Shown: piece by piece, positions 2,969-38,355 of the stretch
Numbering within the stretch: position 1 is the first letter of the stretch
How the letters are laid out: each line of letters begins with the position of its first letter
Origin: Alphaproteobacteria bacterium
Lineage (GTDB): Bacteria; Pseudomonadota; Alphaproteobacteria; Elsterales; Elsteraceae
NCBI GenBank assembly: GCA_004292755.1
Contig: RDXE01000055.1
Location: forward strand, 1-46,008
Length of the DNA: 46,008 nucleotides
Reading direction: 5' to 3'
Translations under genes and position numbers: made by a program
Notes under the pieces: model-generated
Database searches by the model: none
What the model was told of the DNA's origin: nothing
Seen by the model: only the letters and a program-made list of their open reading frames with translations

Positions 2969-3631
2969 ATGCGTACAGGGCCGTTTGACCCGCGGTTAGA
3001 GGATTTGCCGGCGACGGTGCCGGCATTCCCTCTCGCCAGTGTGTTGCTGCTGCCCCGGGGCAAGTTGCCCTTGCGCATCTTCGAGCCGCGATATCTGGCC
3101 ATGACGACCGATGCCTTGGCGACGCCCGATCGTCTGATCGTGATGGTTCAGCCCGTCGATCCAGACAGCCGTGCCAAAGTGCCGGAGGTGTATCGCACGG
3201 GCTGTGCGGGGCGCATCGTCTCGTTCTCCGAAACCGATGAGGGGCACTACCTTCTCACCCTGCAGGGCGTCATGCGGGTGGTGCTGGGCGATGAAATCCG
3301 CACCACGCGAGGCTATCGGCGCTTCTCAGCCGATTGGTCCGTGTTTGGCGAGGATTTGAAGCAGGGGCCAGTGGCGCTTGATCGCCAACGCCTGATCATT
3401 GGCTTGCGCCAGTACTTCCGCCTCCATGGCCTGTCCGCCAACTGGGACGCCATCGAAGAGACGGAGGAAGAGCGGCTGATCACCTCGCTCGCGATGATCT
3501 GCCCGTTCGAAGCCAACGAGAAACAGGCGCTGCTGGAGGCCACCACCGTGGAAGAGCGCGGACGGTTGCTGATTACCTTGATCGAGATGGCGCTGTTGCA
3601 GCACAAGGGCGGGGAGGCGGCGCGGCATTAG
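2969..3631 (+). CDS. LON substrate-binding-domain protein
   Basis: 220 aa, made almost wholly of the N-terminal substrate-binding domain of Lon protease, with no AAA or protease domain. Seen: the opening FPLASVLLLPRGKLPLRIFEPRY near residues 20-42, typical of this domain, then GCAGRIVSFSETDEGHY and a helical C-terminal half. Such stand-alone proteins are widespread in alphaproteobacteria and commonly follow the cnoX gene. Their function is not well defined; a role in protein quality control is inferred from context. It starts 15 bases after cnoX, preceded by GGAGAGA. Confidence 0.85.
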   Translation: MRTGPFDPRLEDLPATVPAFPLASVLLLPRGKLPLRIFEPRYLAMTTDALATPDRLIVMVQPVDPDSRAKVPEVYRTGCAGRIVSFSETDEGHYLLTLQGVMRVVLGDEIRTTRGYRRFSADWSVFGEDLKQGPVALDRQRLIIGLRQYFRLHGLSANWDAIEETEEERLITSLAMICPFEANEKQALLEATTVEERGRLLITLIEMALLQHKGGEAARH

Positions 3632-3876: not shown

Positions 3877-4251
3877 ATGGCCGATCGCTTCTCCGCGGCG
3901 GTGTGGCCGGTGGAGGTGACCCTCCGCCAGGCTGAGAAATCTCTGGTGGTGGCCTGGGAGGATGGTCGCAGCGACACCCTGGCCGCGGAGTATCTGCGGG
4001 TGGAGAGCCCGTCGGCAGAGGTGCAGGGTCACGGTCCGGGGCAGAAGATGCTGGTGGCCGGTCGCCGCCATGTCGGCATCTTGAAGCTGGAGCCGGTGGG
4101 CAACTACGCCATCCGCATCGTGTTCGATGACCTACACGACAGCGGCATCTATTCCTGGAGTTACCTGCGCCAATTGGCCGACGAATACGGGGCGCGCTGG
4201 GCTGAGTATCTGCAAGCGCTGGAGGCTCAGGGCAAACGTCGCGATCCGTAG
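3877..4251 (+). CDS. DUF971 domain protein
   Basis: 124 aa. The start WPVEVTLRQAEKSLVVAWEDG and the later YAIRIVFDDLHDSGIYSWSYLRQL match DUF971, the small fold also found at the N-terminus of gamma-butyrobetaine hydroxylases. In that fold a Cys/His zinc site is common, but it is not obvious here. Stand-alone DUF971 proteins have been linked to iron-sulfur or ApbC/Mrp contexts in other genomes; nothing nearby supports that here. It probably shares a transcript with the Trm112 gene. Confidence 0.85.
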   Translation: MADRFSAAVWPVEVTLRQAEKSLVVAWEDGRSDTLAAEYLRVESPSAEVQGHGPGQKMLVAGRRHVGILKLEPVGNYAIRIVFDDLHDSGIYSWSYLRQLADEYGARWAEYLQALEAQGKRRDP

Positions 4252-4261
4252 GGGGTCTTGG

Positions 4262-5470
4262 ATGCGTGTGTCTCGTCGGTCCCTGTTAGGTGTGGCGGCT
4301 GCGTTGCCGGCCACAGGTGTGCGTGCGCAAGCGGGGGCTGACTGGGCCGCGACGCTCGCCGCAGCCCGCGGGCAAAGCGTTCGCTTCAACGCCTGGGGCG
4401 GCGATGACCGCACCAATGCCTTCATCGCTTGGGCTGGGGAGCAGGTGGGCCGTCGCTTCGGTGTGACTGTCACCCATGTTCGTCTGCGCGACACTGCTGA
4501 TGCCGTCCAGCGGGTGATCGCGGAGCGCGGGGCTGGGCGCACCACCGAGGGTGGCAGTGTTGATCTGTTGTGGGTCAATGGCCCGAACCTCGCCAATCTT
4601 AAAGGACAATCCCTGCTGTTCGGCCCGTTTGCGGATCGGTTGCCCAGTTTCGCGCTGGTGGACCAGCAGGGCAAACCTGCAACCGTGGTGGATTTCACCC
4701 TGCCGGTGGAGGGTTTGGCTGCCCCCTGGCTGATGGCACAGTTCGTCTATGTCTATGACAGTGCGCGAATGCCCAATCCGGCGCGCACGCTGCCTGAGAT
4801 GTTGGCGCAGGCAACGGCGCGGCCGGGGCGGATTGTTCACCCGCACGCGCGCAACTTCACCGGTGCTACCTTCCTCAAACAGGCGCTGGTCAGCCTCGCT
4901 AGCGACCAATCGGTGTTCACCCGCCCTGTTGAGACAGCCCCCTACGAGGCGGCGGCCCGTCCGTTGTGGGAGTGGTATCGCGCGCTGCGGCCCCACCTCT
5001 GGCGGCGTGGGGCCACCTTTCCGCTTGATGCGCCGCAAGCCCACCAACTGCTGGGCGATGGCGAGGCGGACCTGACCTGTTCCTTCAATCCGGCCGATGC
5101 CTCTGGCCAGATCGCCGCCGGGCGGCTGCCTGCCAGCGTGCGCACCATGGTGCTGACGGGCGGGACGATCGGCAACGCAAGCTTCGTGGCAATTCCCATC
5201 AACGCGACCGCCAAGGCTGGCGCGATGGTGCTGGCGGAGTTTCTGTTGTCACCCGAAGCGCAGGCTCACGCAGCCGATGAGCGCGTGCTCGGTCAACCCA
5301 CCGTCCTAGACATCGCCCGCCTATCGGCTGCTGACCGCGCACGCTTCGATGCCCTGCCGCGCGGCATCGCCACCCTGCCACCCGCCGCCCTCTCTCCCTC
5401 CTTGCCCGAGCCGCACCCGACCTGGATGACCAAGGTGACCGAGGACTGGCTGCGGCTGGTTCAGGGCTAG
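4262..5470 (+). CDS. ABC transporter substrate-binding protein, YnjB-like
   Basis: 402 aa. Residues 1-22 carry a twin-arginine-like signal (RVSRRSLLGVAAALPATGVRAQA) with a likely cleavage after AQA. The mature protein opens with VRFNAWGGDDRTNAFIAW, the hallmark of the YnjB/COG4134 family of periplasmic binding proteins, and has the bilobal pattern of iron/thiamine-type binders. The ATG at 4262 is chosen because it begins the signal peptide; longer frames would run through the upstream gene. No permease or ATPase gene lies next to it, so its partners must be elsewhere or absent. The substrate is unknown. Confidence 0.8.
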   Translation: MRVSRRSLLGVAAALPATGVRAQAGADWAATLAAARGQSVRFNAWGGDDRTNAFIAWAGEQVGRRFGVTVTHVRLRDTADAVQRVIAERGAGRTTEGGSVDLLWVNGPNLANLKGQSLLFGPFADRLPSFALVDQQGKPATVVDFTLPVEGLAAPWLMAQFVYVYDSARMPNPARTLPEMLAQATARPGRIVHPHARNFTGATFLKQALVSLASDQSVFTRPVETAPYEAAARPLWEWYRALRPHLWRRGATFPLDAPQAHQLLGDGEADLTCSFNPADASGQIAAGRLPASVRTMVLTGGTIGNASFVAIPINATAKAGAMVLAEFLLSPEAQAHAADERVLGQPTVLDIARLSAADRARFDALPRGIATLPPAALSPSLPEPHPTWMTKVTEDWLRLVQG

Positions 5471-5490
5471 AGGGCGGATCCGCATCCCAC

Positions 5491-5561
5491 TTTATGCGCG
5501 AATGCGTTTAAACTGGTTTTATGCGCGAATGCGTTTAAACTGGTTTTACGCGCGAGTGCGG
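5491..5561. repeat. 27-bp tandem repeat upstream of hipB
   Basis: Two identical 27-bp units (5491-5517 and 5518-5544) and a degenerate partial third (5545-5561, TTTACGCGCGAGTGCGG). Each full unit holds the 8-bp palindrome GTTTAAAC and the segment GCGCGAATGCG. They end 69 bp before the hipB start, where an autoregulatory operator would be expected. The operator role is inference. Confidence 0.85.
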
Positions 5562-5629
5562 ACGTGTTGAGAGTGTTCGCTGGCGCGTGTGTGGCGGATG
5601 CGATGCCGTCATCGAGACGGAGGGGTCCT

Positions 5630-5884
5630 GTGCCAGACGAAATCGCCCGGTCGGAACGACAACTTGGGGCCATCTTGCGACGGATTCGCAAGCTGAAGGG
5701 TCTCAGCCAAAGCGAGTTGGGCGCCCTGATTGATATGCGGCAGGAAACGGTTTCCCGGTTGGAGACCGGTGCCCCAGCACTCCAGGTGCGTACCCTGATG
5801 GCGGTGTTGGCAGCACTGGATCAAGAGTTGGTGGTTCGCCCGCGGACCAAAGCCGAGGCTCGCGACTTTGCGGATATCTTCTAG
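5630..5884 (+). CDS. hipB: HipB-like antitoxin, XRE-family regulator
   Basis: 84 aa from the GTG at 5630, chosen because GGAGGGG lies just upstream; an in-frame ATG at 5603 lacks such a site. Residues about 10-65 form a Cro/C1 helix-turn-helix (LGAILRRIRKLKGLSQSELGALI, then RQETVSRLETG). The tail ends in DFADIF. Its stop overlaps the hipA start by one base, so the two are translationally coupled. HipB-type proteins bind their own promoter and neutralise HipA; the 27-bp repeats just upstream are the natural candidate operator. Base composition is lower in GC than in the flanking genes, in keeping with transfer. Confidence 0.88.
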   Translation: MPDEIARSERQLGAILRRIRKLKGLSQSELGALIDMRQETVSRLETGAPALQVRTLMAVLAALDQELVVRPRTKAEARDFADIF

Positions 5885-7194
5885 TGGCGCGGCCTCGAAC
5901 GCATAGCTATCTCAACGTCTTCATCAATGGCCGCTTGGTGGGTCTTCTCCACAGCGCGTCCTCAGGCGCAATAGACTTCCAATATGATCCTTCGTGGCTG
6001 ACTTGGGACAACTCGTTCCCGATATCACTGTCATTGCCACTGCGTGAAGATAGCTTCCAAGGACAGCCCGTTAAGAATGTCTTCGACAATCTCCTCCCAG
6101 ATAGTGACGCTATTCGGCGGCGAATTGCAGCCCGTGTTGGTGCTGAGGGGGAGGATTTCTACAGTCTGCTCTCGGTGCTTGGGCGTGATTGTGTCGGAGC
6201 ATTGCAGTTTCTGCCCGACGGAGTGGACCCTGAGACGGTGGGTGCAGCCAACGGCATCCCAGTCAGTGACAGCGACATCGCTGAGACGCTTGCCGGTCTT
6301 GAACGAACGCCTCTGGGGATTGACCGGGACAATGACTTCAGGATTTCAATCGCAGGGGCGCAAGAAAAAACTGCTCTGCTGCGCAAAGATGGTCAGTGGT
6401 ATAGACCAACAGGAATCTCAGCAACCACGCATATCTTGAAACCTCAGATTGGAACACTGCCAAACGGTATTGATCTGTCGAACAGTGTTGAGAATGAATT
6501 CTTGTGTGCAAGGCTGATTGCTGCGTTCGGTATCGCAACGGCGACGGTAGAACTGGCCCAGTTCGGTGATCAGCGTACCTTGATCGTGGAGCGGTTTGAC
6601 CGCCTGTGGTTACGGGATCACCGTTTGTTACGACTACCGCAGGAGGATTTCTGCCAAGCCCTGTCGAAGCCGTCGTCACAGAAGTATCAGGCAGACGGTG
6701 GTCCAGGATTGACAGACTTGATCGGGTTGCTGCGCAGCAGCGATCGTGCCGATCAGGATATTGCAACCGTGTTGCGCGCCGCCATCCTGTTCTGGATGCT
6801 GGGTGCCATCGATGGTCATGCCAAGAATTTCAGTATCATGCTCTATCCGGGTGGACGATTTCATCTGGCACCCCTGTATGATGTTTTGAGCGCGCAGCCG
6901 AGTGTCGATTCAAACCTTGTCCGTCATGGCGCGTTCAAGCTTGCCATGGCGGTGGGGAAAAATCGTCACTATCAAATCGAGACCATTGCCGCCCGCCATT
7001 TCATCGAGACAGCGACTGCCGCAGGTGTTGGTCGGTCGGTGATCAAAGCGCTGCTGGACGAAATCGCCAACACAGCCGAAGCCACCGTCGAGGCTGAGAT
7101 CAGTCGCTTGCCCGCCGGGATGCCGGATACCCTCGTCACCTCTGTACAGGCAGGCGTCAAGCGCCGCGCCGCGTTGTTGCGGATGCCATCCTGA
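5884..7194 (+). CDS. hipA: HipA-type serine/threonine kinase toxin
   Basis: 436 aa, full length. HipA kinases phosphorylate aminoacyl-tRNA synthetases (GltX in E. coli) and slow growth. Seen: an N-terminal subdomain (HSYLNVFINGRLVGLL, then DNLLPDSD near 68-75), the Ser-containing loop ISIAGAQEKTALL (Ser about 155, equivalent to the autophosphorylated Ser150 of E. coli), the catalytic loop IDGHAKNFSI (Asp about 310, Asn about 315) and the metal-binding YDVLSAQP (Asp about 333). All key kinase residues are present, so it should be active. The GTG start overlaps the hipB stop. GC is about 10 points below the neighbours, which suggests horizontal gain. Confidence 0.93.
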   Translation: MARPRTHSYLNVFINGRLVGLLHSASSGAIDFQYDPSWLTWDNSFPISLSLPLREDSFQGQPVKNVFDNLLPDSDAIRRRIAARVGAEGEDFYSLLSVLGRDCVGALQFLPDGVDPETVGAANGIPVSDSDIAETLAGLERTPLGIDRDNDFRISIAGAQEKTALLRKDGQWYRPTGISATTHILKPQIGTLPNGIDLSNSVENEFLCARLIAAFGIATATVELAQFGDQRTLIVERFDRLWLRDHRLLRLPQEDFCQALSKPSSQKYQADGGPGLTDLIGLLRSSDRADQDIATVLRAAILFWMLGAIDGHAKNFSIMLYPGGRFHLAPLYDVLSAQPSVDSNLVRHGAFKLAMAVGKNRHYQIETIAARHFIETATAAGVGRSVIKALLDEIANTAEATVEAEISRLPAGMPDTLVTSVQAGVKRRAALLRMPS

Positions 7195-7316
7195 AGCAAC
7201 CTCGCGCTGCTCTGGTGGTCCGATGGTCCGGTCGTCTGATGTGCCAGCATTCGTTGGTTCGGGCTGTCGCGCGCGATGGGCTCCAGATCGCCCCGTGCTT
7301 GCGCCGTGATTGGCGT

Positions 7317-8171
7317 TCACCCCGCCATGACAAAGCCGTTGCGCTCTGGCTGACGCCACCCCTCGGGTGGGCTGGTCGGTTGATAGATGTCCACCTGGAG
7401 CGGGTGGCAGCGGGCCGCGTCGCTGGAGTGTTCGCTGCCGCAATCGCCGCCGGGGCAGGCAGAGAGGGCGCCGATCAAGTCGATCTCGGCGAAGAGCTCA
7501 AGGTAGTCGCCCGGTCGCACCGGGCTCGCCTTCATGAAGTACTGGCCGGTGTCCTTCAGGAACCCCGTGCACATAAATACGTTCAGCACATCATGGATGA
7601 ACGGCTCGGCTTGCTGCTCCGGCACACCGCGCAAACGGGCGAAGGCGCGGGTGAGGTTTGAGTGGCAGCAGTAGTGATAGTCACCACCCGACAGCAGGCG
7701 GTGGGTATAGGGGTCGCAGCGGGTGCCAATAACATCGTGGACGCTGCCGCCATCGGCATCGAATCCGTACCAGTCCAGCGTGTCTTCGGTGATCGTCGCC
7801 ATCGGGCGGAGGTAGGGCAGGTTGGACCATAGCCGATCACCCGTGGACAGGTGGGTGCCGTGCAGCGCGCGGGTCTTGCCGGAGAAGAACCGCTCCTCTG
7901 GATTGGTGGCGGACCACAGGTTCAAATCGCCCACTTGCGGCCCCTCAATTGAGACGATCCGGCAGAACCAGCCTGCGGGCAGCTGAAAGCACTCGGCCGT
8001 GCGCGGCGCGATGGTGAGCCGCTGGTGCAACCGCCATCCCTGCCGCGCCGCGCGATACTGCGCGAGGTCCGGCGGAGACAGGCTGTTAACGGGGTAACAC
8101 ACAACGGGACGCACCGCGCGGCGGGCATCTCCATCCTCTGGCTTGCGATGCTGCGGTGCTGTTGGCTTCAT
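7317..8171 (-). CDS. DUF1989 / urea-carboxylase-associated family protein
   Basis: 284 aa from the ATG at 8169-8171, preceded by GGAAGG; in-frame sequence further upstream is low-complexity and unlikely to be translated. The pattern (RIVSIEGPQVGDLNLW, then DVIGTRCDPYTHRLLSGGDYHYCCHSN, then FMCTGFLKDTGQY and KASPVRPGDYLEL) matches DUF1989, whose members accompany urea carboxylase and occur singly. Several conserved Cys and His residues near the YHYCCHSN segment could bind metal. No urea-related gene is nearby, so a role in urea or guanidine metabolism is not supported by context. It is divergent from the acyl-CoA ligase gene. Confidence 0.8.
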   Translation of the reverse strand: MKPTAPQHRKPEDGDARRAVRPVVCYPVNSLSPPDLAQYRAARQGWRLHQRLTIAPRTAECFQLPAGWFCRIVSIEGPQVGDLNLWSATNPEERFFSGKTRALHGTHLSTGDRLWSNLPYLRPMATITEDTLDWYGFDADGGSVHDVIGTRCDPYTHRLLSGGDYHYCCHSNLTRAFARLRGVPEQQAEPFIHDVLNVFMCTGFLKDTGQYFMKASPVRPGDYLELFAEIDLIGALSACPGGDCGSEHSSDAARCHPLQVDIYQPTSPPEGWRQPERNGFVMAG

Positions 8172-8236
8172 AGCGACCTTCCGCGCCGAATAGTCTCGTG
8201 TCGTCACGATAGCCCGCGGCGCGCCAGGGGGAAGCG

Positions 8237-9766
8237 ATGAATCCAGTGGAATGGCTGCGGCGCTGGGCGGCGCTGGATGGCGCGGCACCGGCCCTGCTGC
8301 TGGGCGATCGCGTGATCGAGACCCGTGCCAGCTTGCTGGGCCAGATGGCACGTCTTGCCGGTGGCTTGCAGGGTCTGGGCGTCGGGCCTGGCGCCCCGCT
8401 GGCAGTGGTGATGCCGAATCGACCCGACTATCTCGTGGCGCTGGGGGCGGCCTGGATGCTGGGGGCACCCGTGGTGCCTGTGAACACCAAGCTGCATGGG
8501 CGGGAGGTCGCCTATATCCTGGACCATGCCGAGGCCGTTGTCGCCTTGGTCGCGGAGCCGGAGGCCATCGCCCGTCACACCAGCGGCTGTTGTCGGCTGG
8601 TGGAGGTGGGTGGCGCGGAACACCGCAGCCTTCTGGCGGCTGATCCCGTCGCAGCCATCGCGCCGCTGGATCGGGACAGCTTGGCCTGGCTGTTCTACAC
8701 CTCCGGCACCACGGGGCGACCCAAGGGGGTGATGATCAGTGCTGGCAATCTGCTGGCGATGACGCTCGCCTACCTCGCTGATGTTGATCAACCTGGGGAG
8801 GAGGCAGCCCATCTCTATGCTGCACCCATGTCCCACGGCGCCGGGCTCTATGCGCTGGTGCATCTGTTGCGCGGTGGCCGCCATCTGCTGCCGGAAAGCG
8901 GTGGGTTTGAACCTGCCGAGATTCTGCACCTGGGTCGCACGGTTGGGCGCGTCTCCCTATTCGCGGCCCCAACCATGGTGCGCCGACTGGTCGATGCAGT
9001 GGTGGCCGGTGCAGGCGATGGTCAGGGCCTGGACACCATCATCTATGGCGGTGGGCCCATGTATCTGGCGGACATTGAGGCAGCCGTGGCCGCCATCGGG
9101 CCGCGCTTTGTGCAGATTTATGGCCAGGGCGAATGCCCGATGACCATCACAGCATTGTCGCGTCGACTGATTGCCGATCGCAGCCATCCGCGCTGGCGTC
9201 AGCGCCTGGTTTCGGTTGGTCAGGCCCAGGCCCCCGTTACGCTGCGCATCGCGGACCCCGAGGGCAGGTCCCTGGGGACCGGTGACGCTGGAGAGATTCT
9301 GGTGCGCGGCGCACCAGTGATGCTTGGCTATTGGCGCGATCCAGCCGCCACGGCCCGCACGCTGCGCGACGGCTGGCTGTGGACCGGCGATGTTGGAACC
9401 ATTGACGAGGAGGGGTTCCTAACTCTGATTGACCGCTCCAAGGATGTGATCATCTCCGGCGGCTCCAATATCTATCCCCGTGAAGTGGAGGAGGTGTTGT
9501 TGCAGCACCCCGCCGTGGCCGAGGTTGCCGTGGTCGGTCACCCCGATCCGGAATGGGGGGAGGTCACCGTGGCAATTCTGGTGCCGCGGCCTGGTCATAC
9601 CGTGTCAGTGGCGGAACTGGATGCTCTGTGTCTGGATCACATCGCCCGCTTCAAGCGCCCCAAACACTATCACGTGGTGGCCAGCCTGCCGAAGAACCAC
9701 TATGGCAAAGTGCTGAAAACTGACCTACGCCGCCTCTTGACTGACCCGGAGCCGTCCACCTCATGA
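8237..9766 (+). CDS. Acyl-CoA synthetase (AMP-forming)
   Basis: 509 aa, full length for the ANL superfamily. Activates a carboxylic acid to acyl-AMP and then acyl-CoA. Seen: the P-loop-like FYTSGTTGRPKGVM near residue 155, YGQGECPM near 295, WTGDVGTIDEEGFL near 385, the hinge DRSKDVIISGGSNIYPREVEEVL, and the C-terminal KNHYGKVLKTDLR with the catalytic lysine. The chain length of the acid cannot be read off; the context suggests an aryl or medium-chain acid. The ATG is preceded by GGGGAAG. The stop overlaps the thioesterase start by 4 bases, so the pair is co-translated. Confidence 0.88.
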   Translation: MNPVEWLRRWAALDGAAPALLLGDRVIETRASLLGQMARLAGGLQGLGVGPGAPLAVVMPNRPDYLVALGAAWMLGAPVVPVNTKLHGREVAYILDHAEAVVALVAEPEAIARHTSGCCRLVEVGGAEHRSLLAADPVAAIAPLDRDSLAWLFYTSGTTGRPKGVMISAGNLLAMTLAYLADVDQPGEEAAHLYAAPMSHGAGLYALVHLLRGGRHLLPESGGFEPAEILHLGRTVGRVSLFAAPTMVRRLVDAVVAGAGDGQGLDTIIYGGGPMYLADIEAAVAAIGPRFVQIYGQGECPMTITALSRRLIADRSHPRWRQRLVSVGQAQAPVTLRIADPEGRSLGTGDAGEILVRGAPVMLGYWRDPAATARTLRDGWLWTGDVGTIDEEGFLTLIDRSKDVIISGGSNIYPREVEEVLLQHPAVAEVAVVGHPDPEWGEVTVAILVPRPGHTVSVAELDALCLDHIARFKRPKHYHVVASLPKNHYGKVLKTDLRRLLTDPEPSTS

Positions 9767-33772: not shown

Positions 33773-35173
33773 TCATGCCTCCCCTTCATCGGACCAGTCG
33801 GCATCCCAGGGGGCTGGGCTGCGCACGGCTTGCCAAACGGGGTTGGCAATCGACAAATCCACCCGGTGAGCGAATTCGACAATGCCGTCGTACCCGGCAT
33901 AGGCGAAGTGGCGCTCCTGATTGACGTCAATCCAGGGGGCTTTGGCTTTCAGGGCGACGAATTGGCTGCGACCGCCGGACATCAGAATGTCGGCCTCGCC
34001 GGTGGACAGCATGCGGAACATTTCCTTGGCGGGGATGTCGTCCACCATGGCGTCGGAGCCGACTAGGTCGATCACCCGCTCCTTATCCTCTACCGTGGCT
34101 TTGCGGACGGAGGTTTTCACCACCTCCATGCCCAACTCCTGCACGGCTGAGACCATTGACCAGCTCTTGTGGCCGCCGGTGTAGACCAGGGCCTTCTTGC
34201 CCGTCAGGCGGGGCAGATACGGGCCAAGGCGCCGCCACGCGCGGGCAGCCCCCTCGGCTGTAACCGCCTCGGCGCGGGTCAGCAGGGCAGGGTCGGCGCC
34301 GCGCTCCACACACAGGCGGGCCATGGTCACAATGGCGTTGGTGGTGTCGGCGATGCCGTAAAAGCTGCCCTCAAACCAGGGGATGCCCCAGCGCTCTTCC
34401 ATGGTGCGGGCGACGTTGATCATCGCCTGGCTGCACACCATCATGTTGACGCGGGCCCGGTGGGCGCCTGCGACATCGCGATAGCGGGCATCGCCCGTGA
34501 TGCAGGCCTGGACGCGCAGGCCAATCGCCTCCAGCAGCGGCTTCACCTGCCACAACTCGCCAGCAAGGTTGTAGTCGCCGATGATGTTGATGTCCGCGTC
34601 GGTCGAAACCTCCGGCTCCATCGTGCCGATCACGTGCTTCAGCAGGGTTTCGCCGCCAAGCCGATTGCCCAGGTTCTTGGTGCCGACCATGCCGGGTGCA
34701 TTGACCGGGATCACCGGCGTGCCGAACTTCAGCGCCGCTGCCTTGCACACGGCTTCGACATCATCGCCAGCCAGGGCTGGCACACAGGTTTGATAGACAA
34801 AGACAGCAGCTGGGCTGTGTCGTTCAATCACTTGGCGAATGGCTTTGTAGAGTTTCTGTTCGCCGCCATGGATCACGTCCAGGTCGGTCAAGTCGGTGGT
34901 CACGCCCAAGCGATAGAGCTGGGGACCAGAGCTGAAGGCGTGGCGATTATCCCAGCCATTGCCTTCGCAGGCGATGGGTGCATGAACCAGATGGATGGCA
35001 TCAACAATGGGCTGAAGGGCGATCTTGGCGCCATCAAAGGCACAGCCGCCAGCAGCGGCACCGGGTGTCAGCGCCTTGACGCTGCACCCTTTCTTCTTTT
35101 CGGCGGCCGACTTGGCCCGATTGGTGGGGCAGGCCGGTTCTTCGAAAACAGAGGCAAGCGTGTCGGTCAGCAT
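33773..35173 (-). CDS. nifE: Nitrogenase cofactor scaffold subunit NifE
   Basis: 466 aa from the ATG at 35171-35173 (GGGGGA upstream); a TTG 18 bases earlier is less likely. GGCAFDGAKIALQPIVDAIHLVHAPIACEGNGWDNRH near residues 42-79 holds the cluster cysteines, and VFVYQTCVPALAGDDVEAVC the third. NifE lacks the alpha-subunit His that ligates FeMo-co in NifD. Sits after nifK across a gap with a strong hairpin; no own sigma-54 promoter was found there. Confidence 0.96.
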   Translation of the reverse strand: MLTDTLASVFEEPACPTNRAKSAAEKKKGCSVKALTPGAAAGGCAFDGAKIALQPIVDAIHLVHAPIACEGNGWDNRHAFSSGPQLYRLGVTTDLTDLDVIHGGEQKLYKAIRQVIERHSPAAVFVYQTCVPALAGDDVEAVCKAAALKFGTPVIPVNAPGMVGTKNLGNRLGGETLLKHVIGTMEPEVSTDADINIIGDYNLAGELWQVKPLLEAIGLRVQACITGDARYRDVAGAHRARVNMMVCSQAMINVARTMEERWGIPWFEGSFYGIADTTNAIVTMARLCVERGADPALLTRAEAVTAEGAARAWRRLGPYLPRLTGKKALVYTGGHKSWSMVSAVQELGMEVVKTSVRKATVEDKERVIDLVGSDAMVDDIPAKEMFRMLSTGEADILMSGGRSQFVALKAKAPWIDVNQERHFAYAGYDGIVEFAHRVDLSIANPVWQAVRSPAPWDADWSDEGEA

Positions 35174-35217
35174 GGCAGTCCCCCGACGCAATGCGGAACG
35201 AATGACGGACCAGCCGT

Positions 35218-35255
35218 GGCACCCCCCACCACCCAGACAAGTGGTGGGGGGTGCC
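35218..35255 (-). terminator. 15-bp perfect hairpin between nifK and nifE
   Basis: GGCACCCCCCACCAC (35218-35232) and GTGGTGGGGGGTGCC (35241-35255) are exact inverted repeats around an 8-nt loop. No T-run follows on the nif strand, so partial termination, RNA processing or 3'-end protection of nifHDK mRNA are all possible. Any of these would set NifEN below NifHDK. Confidence 0.75.
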
Positions 35256-35263
35256 GGGTCGGC

Positions 35264-36814
35264 TTAGCGGGTCAGGTCGTAGCTGATGTCCGTGACGCCG
35301 GGGATGATGGTGTTGGCGTCCAGGGCATCGAAGATCTTGTCCAGCAGCGCCACCAGCACGCGCAGGCCGCCTTGATAGCCGAAGGTCGGGAAGCGGTGGT
35401 GGTGATGACGGTCGAAGATCGGGAAGGTCAGGCGGATCAGCGGAATGCCGAGGTCGCGCTCCAGATACTTGCCGTAGCTGTTGCCGATCAGCAGTTCCGT
35501 CGGCTCGGTCGCGAGGATCGAGCGCAGCGCCCACAGGTCCTTGCCTTGCCACACCTGCGCTTGCGCGCCGAACGGCGAGGTGGCCAGCAGTTCCTTCATC
35601 TTGGCTTCCCAGGCCTTGGTGCCGTTGGTTGCCAGCACGTGGCGCGGCTCGGCCCCCAGCTCCAGCAGGAACTCGGTCATGCCATAGACGAAGTCAGGGT
35701 CGCCATAGATGGCAAAGGTGCGGCCATGCAGGTAGGCTTGGCTGTCTGCCATGGCGTCAACCAGACGACCACGCTCCAGCGTCAGCTGATCCGGGATGTC
35801 CTTGCCGGTGATCGCCGCCACCTTCATCAAGAAGCGGTCGGTTGCCGCCACACCCATCGGGTAGTGGAAGGCAGCCACGTCCTGACCTTTGCCAGCGATG
35901 TACTCCAGGGTCTTTTCCGTGCAGTACTGCTGCAGGGAAATCGTGCCCTGGGCGTGCAGCGCAGTCTTGGTCTGCTCGATGGTGGTGCCACCAGCATACA
36001 TGCGGAACTGACCATCGGATGGCGTGTCATAAACATCCGAGACGTCGGACAGCACGGTGTAGCTGACACCCATCAGGTCGAGCATCCGCTTCATCTCGCG
36101 GATGTTCGCTGGCGCGTAGCCGTCAAAGCCCGGGATGATATTGACGGAATGGCTCATCTGGTCGACGGGCTTACGCTCGTCGGTCTGCCAGAAGTGCTCG
36201 AGAATGCCCTTGATCGCCACGTCGTAGCCATTGACATGGCTGCCAACGAACGCCGGGGTGTGGGCGTAGGGCACGTGATAGTCTGCCGGGACCGACCCTT
36301 TTTCCTTCGCCGTCTTGATGAAGGAATTCAGGTCTTCACCGATGACTTCAGACATGCAGGTGGTCGAGACGGCGATCATCTCCGGCTTGTACAGCGCGTA
36401 GGTGTTGGCCAGACCATCCACCATGTTGTTCAGGCCGCCGAACACTGCAGCGTCTTCCGTCATCGAGGAGGAGACGGCCGACGACGGCTCCTTGAAATGG
36501 CGGGACAAGTGCGAGCGATAGTACGACACGCAGCCTTGCGAGCCATGGACGAACGGCATGGTGCCAGCGAACCCTTGGGCGGCGAACACCGCACCCAGTG
36601 GTTGGCAAGCCTTCATCGGGTTGACCGACAGCGCCTCGCGAGCCAGGTTCTTTTCGCGATAGTCCCAAGACTTGGTCCAATCGGCGACTTCCGTCACACG
36701 CTCATCGGTGTGACCGCACTCGAACGCGGCCTTCTTGGCCTTCAACATCTCACGATATTCCGGCTCGTGGAACAGCGTGACGTGATCCTTCACCTTTTCG
36801 GCGGACTGGGGCAT
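35264..36814 (-). CDS. nifK: Nitrogenase MoFe protein beta chain
   Basis: 516 aa from the ATG at 36812-36814. P-cluster cysteines are in [11 protein letters not shown] (Cys 70), [13 protein letters not shown] (Cys 95) and [13 protein letters not shown] (Cys 153), with the usual spacing, and the N-terminal extension ([20 protein letters not shown]) is present, as in Mo-nitrogenases of group I. Forms the alpha2-beta2 protein with NifD in the cytoplasm. It follows nifD by 77 bases. Confidence 0.98.
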
Positions 36815-36891
36815 GGGTCGTCTCCACGCGGCGGGGAAGCGCTTACCGCTCCACACCGCCGCTTCAGGGGAACTGGCGGGCTGCCTGGCTG

Positions 36892-38355
36892 TTACGCGGC
36901 CTTCTTCCAAGGCGCGTCAAAGCGGCTCCACACCGGGTTGTTGATGGCAAGGTCCATATCGCGTGCGAAGATCGCGAACCCGTCATAGCCGTGGTATGGA
37001 CCGGAGTAGTCCCACGAGTGCATCTGACGGAACGGGATGCCCATCTTCTGGATCGGATACTTCTCCTTGATGCCGGAGCCGACCAGATCGGGGCGCACGC
37101 CTTCGACGAACTTCTCCAGCTCATAGCCAGTGACGTCGTCGTAAATCAGCGTGCCTTCCTTCACGTAGTGACCAGTGCGCTGGTAGTCGTCAGCGTGGGC
37201 GAACTCGTAGCCCGTGCCGGCGATTTCCATGCCCAGATCGGTGTAGGCATTGACCACGTGCCGCGGACGCAGGCCGCCGACATACAGCATCACGGTCTTG
37301 CCTTGCAGCCGTGGCTTGTACTTCTCGATCACTGCATCGACCAGACCTTGGTATTTCGCGATCACAGCCTCAGTCTTTTCGACAATCGTCTTGTCGAAAT
37401 GAGCCGCAATGGCGCGCAGCGACTTGGCGATCTGGGTCGGGCCGAAGAAGTTGTACTCCACCCATGGAATCGAGTACTTCTCTTCCATGTGACGGCAGAT
37501 GTAGTTCATCGACCGGTAGCAGTGGATCAGGTTCAGCTTGGCCTTCGGCGCGCGCTCCATCTCGGCCAGGGTCGCGTCACCCGACCAGGCACCGATCACG
37601 CGCAGGCCCATTTCTTCCAGCAGAATGCGGGAGGACCAGGCATCGCCACCGATGTTGTAGTCGCCAATCAGGTTGACGTCGTAGGGGGTGCTCTCCCACT
37701 CGATCTCCTTCTTGTCGAACACATAGTCCCGGATCGCGTCGTTCGCGATGTGGTGACCAAGCGACTGGGAGACACCGCGGAAGCCTTCGCAGCGCACCGG
37801 CACGATGGTGGTGTTGTGCTCCTTGGCCTTCTTCTTCGACACCGCCTCGATGTCGTCGCCGATCAGGCCGATTGGGCACTCAGACTGCACCGAGATGCCG
37901 TTCGCCAACGGGAACAGCTCTTGGATTTCGTCGATGATCTTTTCCAGCTTCTTGTCGCCACCGAACACGATGTCCTTTTCTTGGAAATCGGAGGTGAACT
38001 GCATGGTGACGAAGCTGTCGCCACCGGTCTTGCCGATGTAGTAGTTGCGGCGTTGCGACCAGGAGTAGTGACCGCAGCCAACCGGACCGTGGCTGATGTG
38101 GACCATGTCCTTGATCGGACCCCACACCACGCCCTTGGAACCGGCGTAAGCACAGCCACGGATGGTCATCACACCGGGAACCGACTTCACGTTCGACTTG
38201 ACGTCGCAGGCGGTGCCTTCGCTGTCATTCTCGTCCGCTTCGGCCACGTTCAGGTGCTTGGCGCGCCGCTTCTTGGCCTTGTCTGGGTAGGCGGCCAAAA
38301 CCTCTTCAATCAGTTTGCGATGCCGTTCGGCATCAGCCTTGAAATCGCCGTCCAT
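36892..38355 (-). CDS. nifD: Nitrogenase MoFe protein alpha chain
   Basis: 487 aa from the ATG at 38353-38355, preceded by AAGGAGTG. P-cluster ligands: Cys 68 (IRGCAYAG), Cys 94 ([10 protein letters not shown]) and Cys 160 ([12 protein letters not shown]). FeMo-cofactor ligands: Cys 279 ([19 protein letters not shown]) and His 446 ([16 protein letters not shown]). Val and Arg residues around the cofactor look normal, and the protein is the molybdenum type, not VnfD or AnfD. Catalyses N2 reduction with NifK and NifH. Confidence 0.98.

Follow-up and report, generated by a model that had tools for sequence, protein, structure and literature searches.

A 27-bp tandem repeat upstream of an alphaproteobacterial hipBA operon is probably a HipB operator ladder

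Introduction

A 27-bp sequence is repeated head to tail immediately upstream of a hipBA gene pair in a 46,008-nucleotide stretch of an Elsteraceae contig, the whole of which is called the window below. The locus raises the question of what this repeat does, and whether it is peculiar to the operon behind it or belongs to a known kind of promoter. The initial annotation, made from the letters of the DNA, described it as an unusual leader containing a palindrome and proposed a tandem operator allowing cooperative control by copy number, in which slippage of the repeat could alter toxin expression. We addressed the question by comparing the locus with the upstream regions of related hipBA operons, with the genome that carries it and with the hipBA systems described in the literature.

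Results

Domain and structure matches supported the assignment of the two genes behind the repeat to hipBA, as initially annotated. The HipB product matched HTH_3 (3.6e-10), and HipA matched HipA_C (8.6e-52), Couple_hipA (4.4e-26) and the structure of E. coli HipA at 2e-89. The kinase residues S155, K162, D239, D310, N315 and D333 of HipA are all present and are invariant among 93 HipA proteins including that of the window. With an HTH gene directly upstream of, and overlapping, an intact HipA kinase gene, the predicted operon fits a type II hipBA toxin-antitoxin system. The start of hipB was placed by alignment together with a Shine-Dalgarno-like site (Table 1), and an in-frame GTG also occurs upstream at 5564. 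G28 and D292 of HipA, kept in 91 of the 93 proteins, align with G22 and D291, the two hipA7 residues of E. coli; the hipA7 changes are named in the available text of PMC3376134, and G22S is described in that of PMC7029023 as affecting the dimerisation of HipA on operators. Filing the pair under defence systems was rejected, the PADLOC matches being weak and directed to HTH and candidate families.

Table 1 Features of the hipBA locus, with putative operators O1-O4, in window coordinates.
Feature	Position	Strand	Sequence or description	Remarks
Operator O1, distal	5493..5510		TATGCGC-GAAT-GCGTTTA dyad in the first exact unit	21.5 bits, rank 1-2 of 45,991
Operator O2	5520..5537		Identical to O1, 27 bp downstream of it	Rank 1-2 of 45,991
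Operator O3, degenerate	5547..5564		TACGCGC-GAGT-GCGGACG, the partial unit	-0.08 bits, rank 35 of 45,991
Candidate -35	5567..5572	+	TTGAGA (5/6)	In the O3-O4 spacer, 2 nt past the slot of the relatives
Operator O4, degenerate	5574..5591		TGTTCGC-TGGC-GCGTGTG	-0.97 bits, rank 41 of 45,991
Shine-Dalgarno-like site before hipB	5619..5625	+	GGAGGGG	Putative, from sequence
hipB, antitoxin/repressor	5630..5884	+	84 aa, recognition helix MRQETVSRLE	GTG start
hipA, Ser/Thr kinase toxin	5884..7194	+	436 aa	GTG start, 1-nt overlap with the hipB stop

For comparison, 122 loci with HipA relatives were examined, comprising 8 of the 27 rows of one search and 80 and 34 of two others; the set of 80 comprises the top-ranking loci out of at least 575 candidates and represents the nearest relatives rather than HipA at large. 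Nineteen loci were dropped, five of them without hipB in the available sequence and 14 with a HipB alignment score of 100 or less (E. coli-type loci among them), which left 103. A further 11 with a ladder score below 0.735 were excluded from the counts of units, promoters and covariation, which left 92.

Inspection by eye of the upstream regions of 74 relatives revealed mostly rows of dyads. In the closest clades the dyad TATACGC-N4-GCGTATA recurs every 27 bp; each unit joins an 18-bp dyad to a spacer of 9 bp, and the number of units is usually 3-4. Self-identity over the 150 nt upstream of hipB averaged 0.429 at a lag of 27, every other lag between 12 and 49 giving 0.228-0.302 (n = 103), and a control of 50 shuffling rounds reached a maximum of 0.267 at lags 26-28. 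The best lag was 27 in 85 of the 103 relatives, so the period that had been taken as unusual is the common one among related loci. The 27-bp ladder score exceeded the highest of 300 shuffles (0.738) in 88 relatives and equalled it in four more, and the remaining 11 of the 103 have no clear 27-bp ladder; the window ladder scored 0.81. Among 53 close relatives, 96 of the 107 steps between adjacent sites measure exactly 27 bp, and TATACGC-type sites number four in 28 loci, three in 10, two in 3, one in 6 and none in 6.

At the window locus, the units at 5491-5517 and 5518-5544 lie head to tail and are identical at all 27 positions. The unit TTTATGCGCGAATGCGTTTAAACTGGT is thus found twice exactly within 5491-5560 and is followed by a partial unit at 5545-5560, in agreement with the two exact and one partial copies first described. 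This array has the top Tandem Repeats Finder (TRF) score of the window (126, with the runner-up at 52). We then scanned both strands of the window with a weight matrix that combined 146 sites, contributed by 47 of the 53 close relatives, the window itself being excluded. O1 and O2 ranked first and second among all positions, and the best score outside the ladder was 7.7 bits versus 21.5 for these two. The ranks of 35 and 41 obtained in the 27-bp register mark the partial unit as a third, worn operator and O4 as a fourth. The positions one step beyond the ladder ranked 38,962 (5466, before it) and 27,074 (5601, after it). With arm letters derived from the locus itself, O1 to O4 match at 12, 12, 10 and 9 of 14 positions, respectively, and the window arms are asymmetric, with five of seven positions complementary. 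Regularly spaced dyads therefore do stand upstream of hipB, as O1-O4 in 27-bp steps with O3 and O4 degenerate. The extent first given was right for three units, which form only the upstream part of a four-unit ladder, O4 having been overlooked. The palindrome singled out earlier, GTTTAAAC, did not hold up as the relevant one: comparison with the relatives shows that it covers the right edge of the site plus spacer, that the axis of the dyad falls within the GAAT separating its arms, and that the consensus, whose axis is in the N4 centre, reads TATATT at this stretch. It was accordingly rejected as the dyad axis.

The letters of the arms vary among clades while the 27-bp step stays constant, and they go together with two residues of the HipB recognition helix. 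In the 93 ladders (92 relatives plus the window), W37 pairs with TATGAT arms in 19 of 19 cases and R37 with A39 or G39 pairs with TATACG arms in 45 of 47. The combination found in the window, R37 with E39, has TATACG arms in none of 14 cases, its arms being TATGCG, TATCGG or related. Smaller classes, namely R37-R39 (3, with TAGGCG arms), R37-S39 (2) and Y, G, Q or S at residue 37 (8), follow no one rule. Since the HipA tree puts the window beside the G39/A39 group of Mesorhizobium and Bradyrhizobium (branch support 91, not starred), its E39 and TATGCGC left arm may represent an independent joint change. The independent starred pairs in this tree number two for W37 and one for E39, too few for p < 0.05, and a statistical proof of a recognition code was accordingly discarded. 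One locus (L123) combines W37 with TATGATC arms and sits among R37-E39 relatives in the tree (supports 80 and 93); the pairing may have arisen a second time there. By eye, some R37-E39 loci, such as L033, L080, L120 and L137, have asymmetric operators with one TATGCG-like and one TATCGG-like arm, apparently in alternating orientation.

In the relatives, a -35-like hexamer often directly follows an operator, and a -10-like hexamer falls within the right arm of the operator after it. The two hexamers occupy the final spacer and the final dyad in 52 of the 92, and 56 of them have a consensus-like promoter somewhere within the 150 nt. In the window, the -35 slot proper reads TGTTGA (2/6) and the -10 slot at 5588-5593 reads TGTGTG (2/6), which is equally poor in only 2 of the 92 relatives. 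No sigma-70-type promoter was detected by a scan of 5440-5700, a weak test in that the same rule finds none within 150 nt in 36 of the 92 relatives. High-GC alphaproteobacteria often have promoters that depart from the E. coli consensus. In the window, 56 bp separate the start of the last unit from hipB, against a median of 39 bp in the relatives, and a strong distal operator combined with a comparably weak last one occurs in a single relative of the 92. The poor -10 slot and the negative scan imply that repression here may not work by masking a promoter beneath the last dyad. Together with the worn proximal operators, they leave the option that hipBA may be expressed from an unrecognised promoter or by read-through of the upstream gene.

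That upstream gene (4250-5470) lies on the same strand and encodes a solute-binding protein. Its counterpart in the one other genome of the genus overlaps a gene for a transporter membrane component (BPD_transp_1, 5e-8); the gene in the window has no such neighbour, and the best match to that component in this genome is on contig C47 (30668-32149) with 57% identity. G+C content drops to 53-59% over hipBA (5471-7200), compared with about 63-71% elsewhere in the first 12 kb. HipA found no match at 1e-40 in the one other species of the genus (genome 88% complete) and none at 1e-140 in the other genomes of the order (nine genomes including its own). Judging from the dip in G+C, the broken gene order and the missing HipA match in the genus relative, hipBA appears to have been acquired, and it stands where the local order of genes is disrupted.

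Further genes of the window were recorded alongside. A stand-alone Lon substrate-binding domain protein (LON_substr_bdg) is encoded at 2969-3631, 2 kb upstream of hipB, and E. coli HipB is a Lon substrate according to the available text of PMC3376134. This proximity is probably a coincidence, because the genus relative has such a gene upstream of its solute-binding-protein gene with no hipBA after it. Downstream of hipA, the minus strand encodes at 7320-8243 a DUF1989 protein with distant similarity to proteins associated with urea amidolyase, for which eight other genomes gave no match at 1e-20. Elsewhere in the window, an open reading frame of 939 aa (34169-36988) has no Pfam match at 1e-3.

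Discussion

The 27-bp repeat upstream of hipBA is very probably an operator array through which HipB represses its own operon, as the comparison with related promoters suggests. By homology, the HipA-HipB complex would repress through the same array. Each dyad would take up one HipB dimer, as in E. coli, and HipA would bridge neighbouring HipB dimers in the manner proposed for that species, for which the conservation of G28 and D292 speaks only indirectly. A filled ladder would then shut the promoter, which in many relatives appears to occupy the final spacer and dyad. At the window locus, the distal pair O1-O2 is probably the main site of repression, because these two operators are strong and identical and O3, O4 and the -10 have drifted; the basal promoter would be weak or moved. 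The tandem operator of the initial annotation thus survives in part: a multi-site HipB operator is in all likelihood present and its layout suits cooperative binding, but control by copy number is improbable.

Such control would come about if the tandem units gained and lost copies by slippage and thereby tuned toxin expression. The one observation in its favour is that units 1 and 2 are identical at 27 of 27 positions, spacer included, when the best adjacent pair in the 92 relatives reaches 23 of 27 and the median is 19; this exact identity suggests a recent duplication or conversion. Unit number varies little, however, with four contiguous units in 48 relatives, three in 43, two in one and more in none, so that 91 of the 92 have three or four (a count that also admitted non-contiguous units gave a single locus with five). 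Moreover, two copies of 27 bp would be few for frequent slippage, and we consider such a switch very unlikely. Far less room is left for a repeat that belongs to the coding sequence. Its length is a multiple of three, equal to nine codons, and no stop codon interrupts the hipB frame between the end of the upstream gene and hipB itself, but the first ATG, GTG or TTG in that frame is the GTG at 5564, 3' of the repeats, and the relatives keep the dyads and their spacing. With no start codon of that frame before 5564, we reject this explanation and would grant it only a trace of probability. Least probable of all is a dispersed genomic element unrelated to HipB, although perfect tandem copies within an intergenic gap are also often seen with such elements. 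A degenerate pattern of the 16-base core matched the 4.21-Mb genome at three places, all of them at the hipBA array, and the 20-mer core with up to three mismatches matched at two, both again in the array; the initial annotation had named widespread repeats without a link to hipB as the finding that would speak against it, and no other genomic copy of this core was found within three mismatches. Across 191 genomes including its own, the same search gave 25 further matches in 23 other genomes, all with exactly three mismatches, which is near chance because a reversed control pattern gave 15. Furthermore, hipB genes of other bacterial families are preceded by similar dyads with an equal step. 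The searches of its own genome and of the relatives thus exclude a dispersed repeat for practical purposes.

Two further readings of the locus carry more weight than these, and both are still doubtful. The ladder could be a relic whose proximal half has decayed, with hipBA transcribed by read-through and the repeat no longer controlling it. The poor -10 slot, the negative promoter scan, the degeneration of O3 and O4 in a pattern nearly without parallel among the relatives, and the end of the same-strand solute-binding-protein gene only 22 bp upstream of O1 would all fit such a history. However, one would not expect O1 and O2 to have stayed identical and at 21.5 bits under drift alone, the hipB and hipA frames and the kinase residues are intact, and the negative scan loses force both from the 36 relatives that it fails to recognise and from the departure of high-GC alphaproteobacterial promoters from the E. 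coli consensus. We therefore hold an idle ladder to be a possibility well short of probable. Similarly tentative is a more specific proposal, in which a two-residue code of HipB (37 and 39) sets the arm on a fixed 27-bp step and the locus has been rewired so that HipBA sits on an upstream platform. In that code W37 would read TATGATC, R37 with A39 or G39 would read TATACGC, and R37 with E39 would read TATGCG or TATCGG. The distal unit would have been copied exactly in recent times and the promoter-proximal operators and the -10 lost, so that HipBA would no longer sit on the promoter.

If the repeat is a HipB operator array, an odd-looking sequence becomes an ordinary one, and hipBA promoters could be recognised and classified from their sequence by the 27-bp step combined with the relation between arm letters and HipB residues. 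The same rule could serve in tests of DNA recognition by HipB and of the extent to which operator spacing limits the cooperative assembly of HipBA.

The arrangement most likely belongs to a kind already known, that of the HipB operator ladder of E. coli. The E. coli promoter likewise has four 18-bp dyads upstream of hipB, an HTH repressor and a HipA kinase. According to the available text of PMC3920265, HipB binds its four sites cooperatively with HipA as co-repressor, and cooperative binding to four sites is also stated in that of PMC3376134. The E. coli dyads, TATCCN8GGATA, stand at -134, -106, -67 and -39 from hipB, with steps of 28, 39 and 28 bp, whereas the window ladder has a uniform 27-bp step, arms of TATGCGC/TAAACGC and degenerate promoter-proximal sites. 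The absence of TATCC/GGATA arms, remarked on in the initial annotation, is therefore real, but a different mode of control finds no support in it, as E. coli too has four spaced dyads.

Beyond E. coli, the Legionella HipBST system resembles the window in having several evenly spaced 18-nt inverted-repeat sites, which are bound by HipB and largely conserved between the arms, and differs in being tripartite, with three sites, 53-bp gaps and another motif (PMC10653801, available text). In Caulobacter crescentus, hipBA1 and hipBA2 have a series of inverted repeats at intervals said in the accessible text of PMC7029023 to fit the higher-order E. coli complex, and three operator sites are reported in that of PMC8545095. 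A relative from Caulobacter sp. AP07 has TATACGC-type sites. Acidovorax HipB binds its own promoter, in a text whose available part uses no operator or repeat terms (PMC11990009), and the accessible text of PMC8262856 mentions palindromic operators in general terms only. A uniform 27-bp ladder or a relation to residues 37 and 39 was not found in the accessible literature and may already be published.

The closest HipA proteins, up to 63% identical and found among the 80 top matches out of at least 575 candidates, belong to 12 loci of Mesorhizobium, Bradyrhizobium, Phyllobacterium and related bacteria (L059-L070). These loci share the 27-bp ladder, with TATACGC-type sites in three or four units, and differ from the window in the fourth base of the left arm (A versus G) and in HipB residue 39 (G or A versus E). 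A consensus-like -35/-10 pair lies over the last unit in seven of the 12 and elsewhere in three, and is lacking in two, and no exactly duplicated unit like that of the window occurs among them. As judged from these sequences, the window locus is unusual only in the exact duplication of its two distal units and in its eroded promoter-proximal operators and -10.
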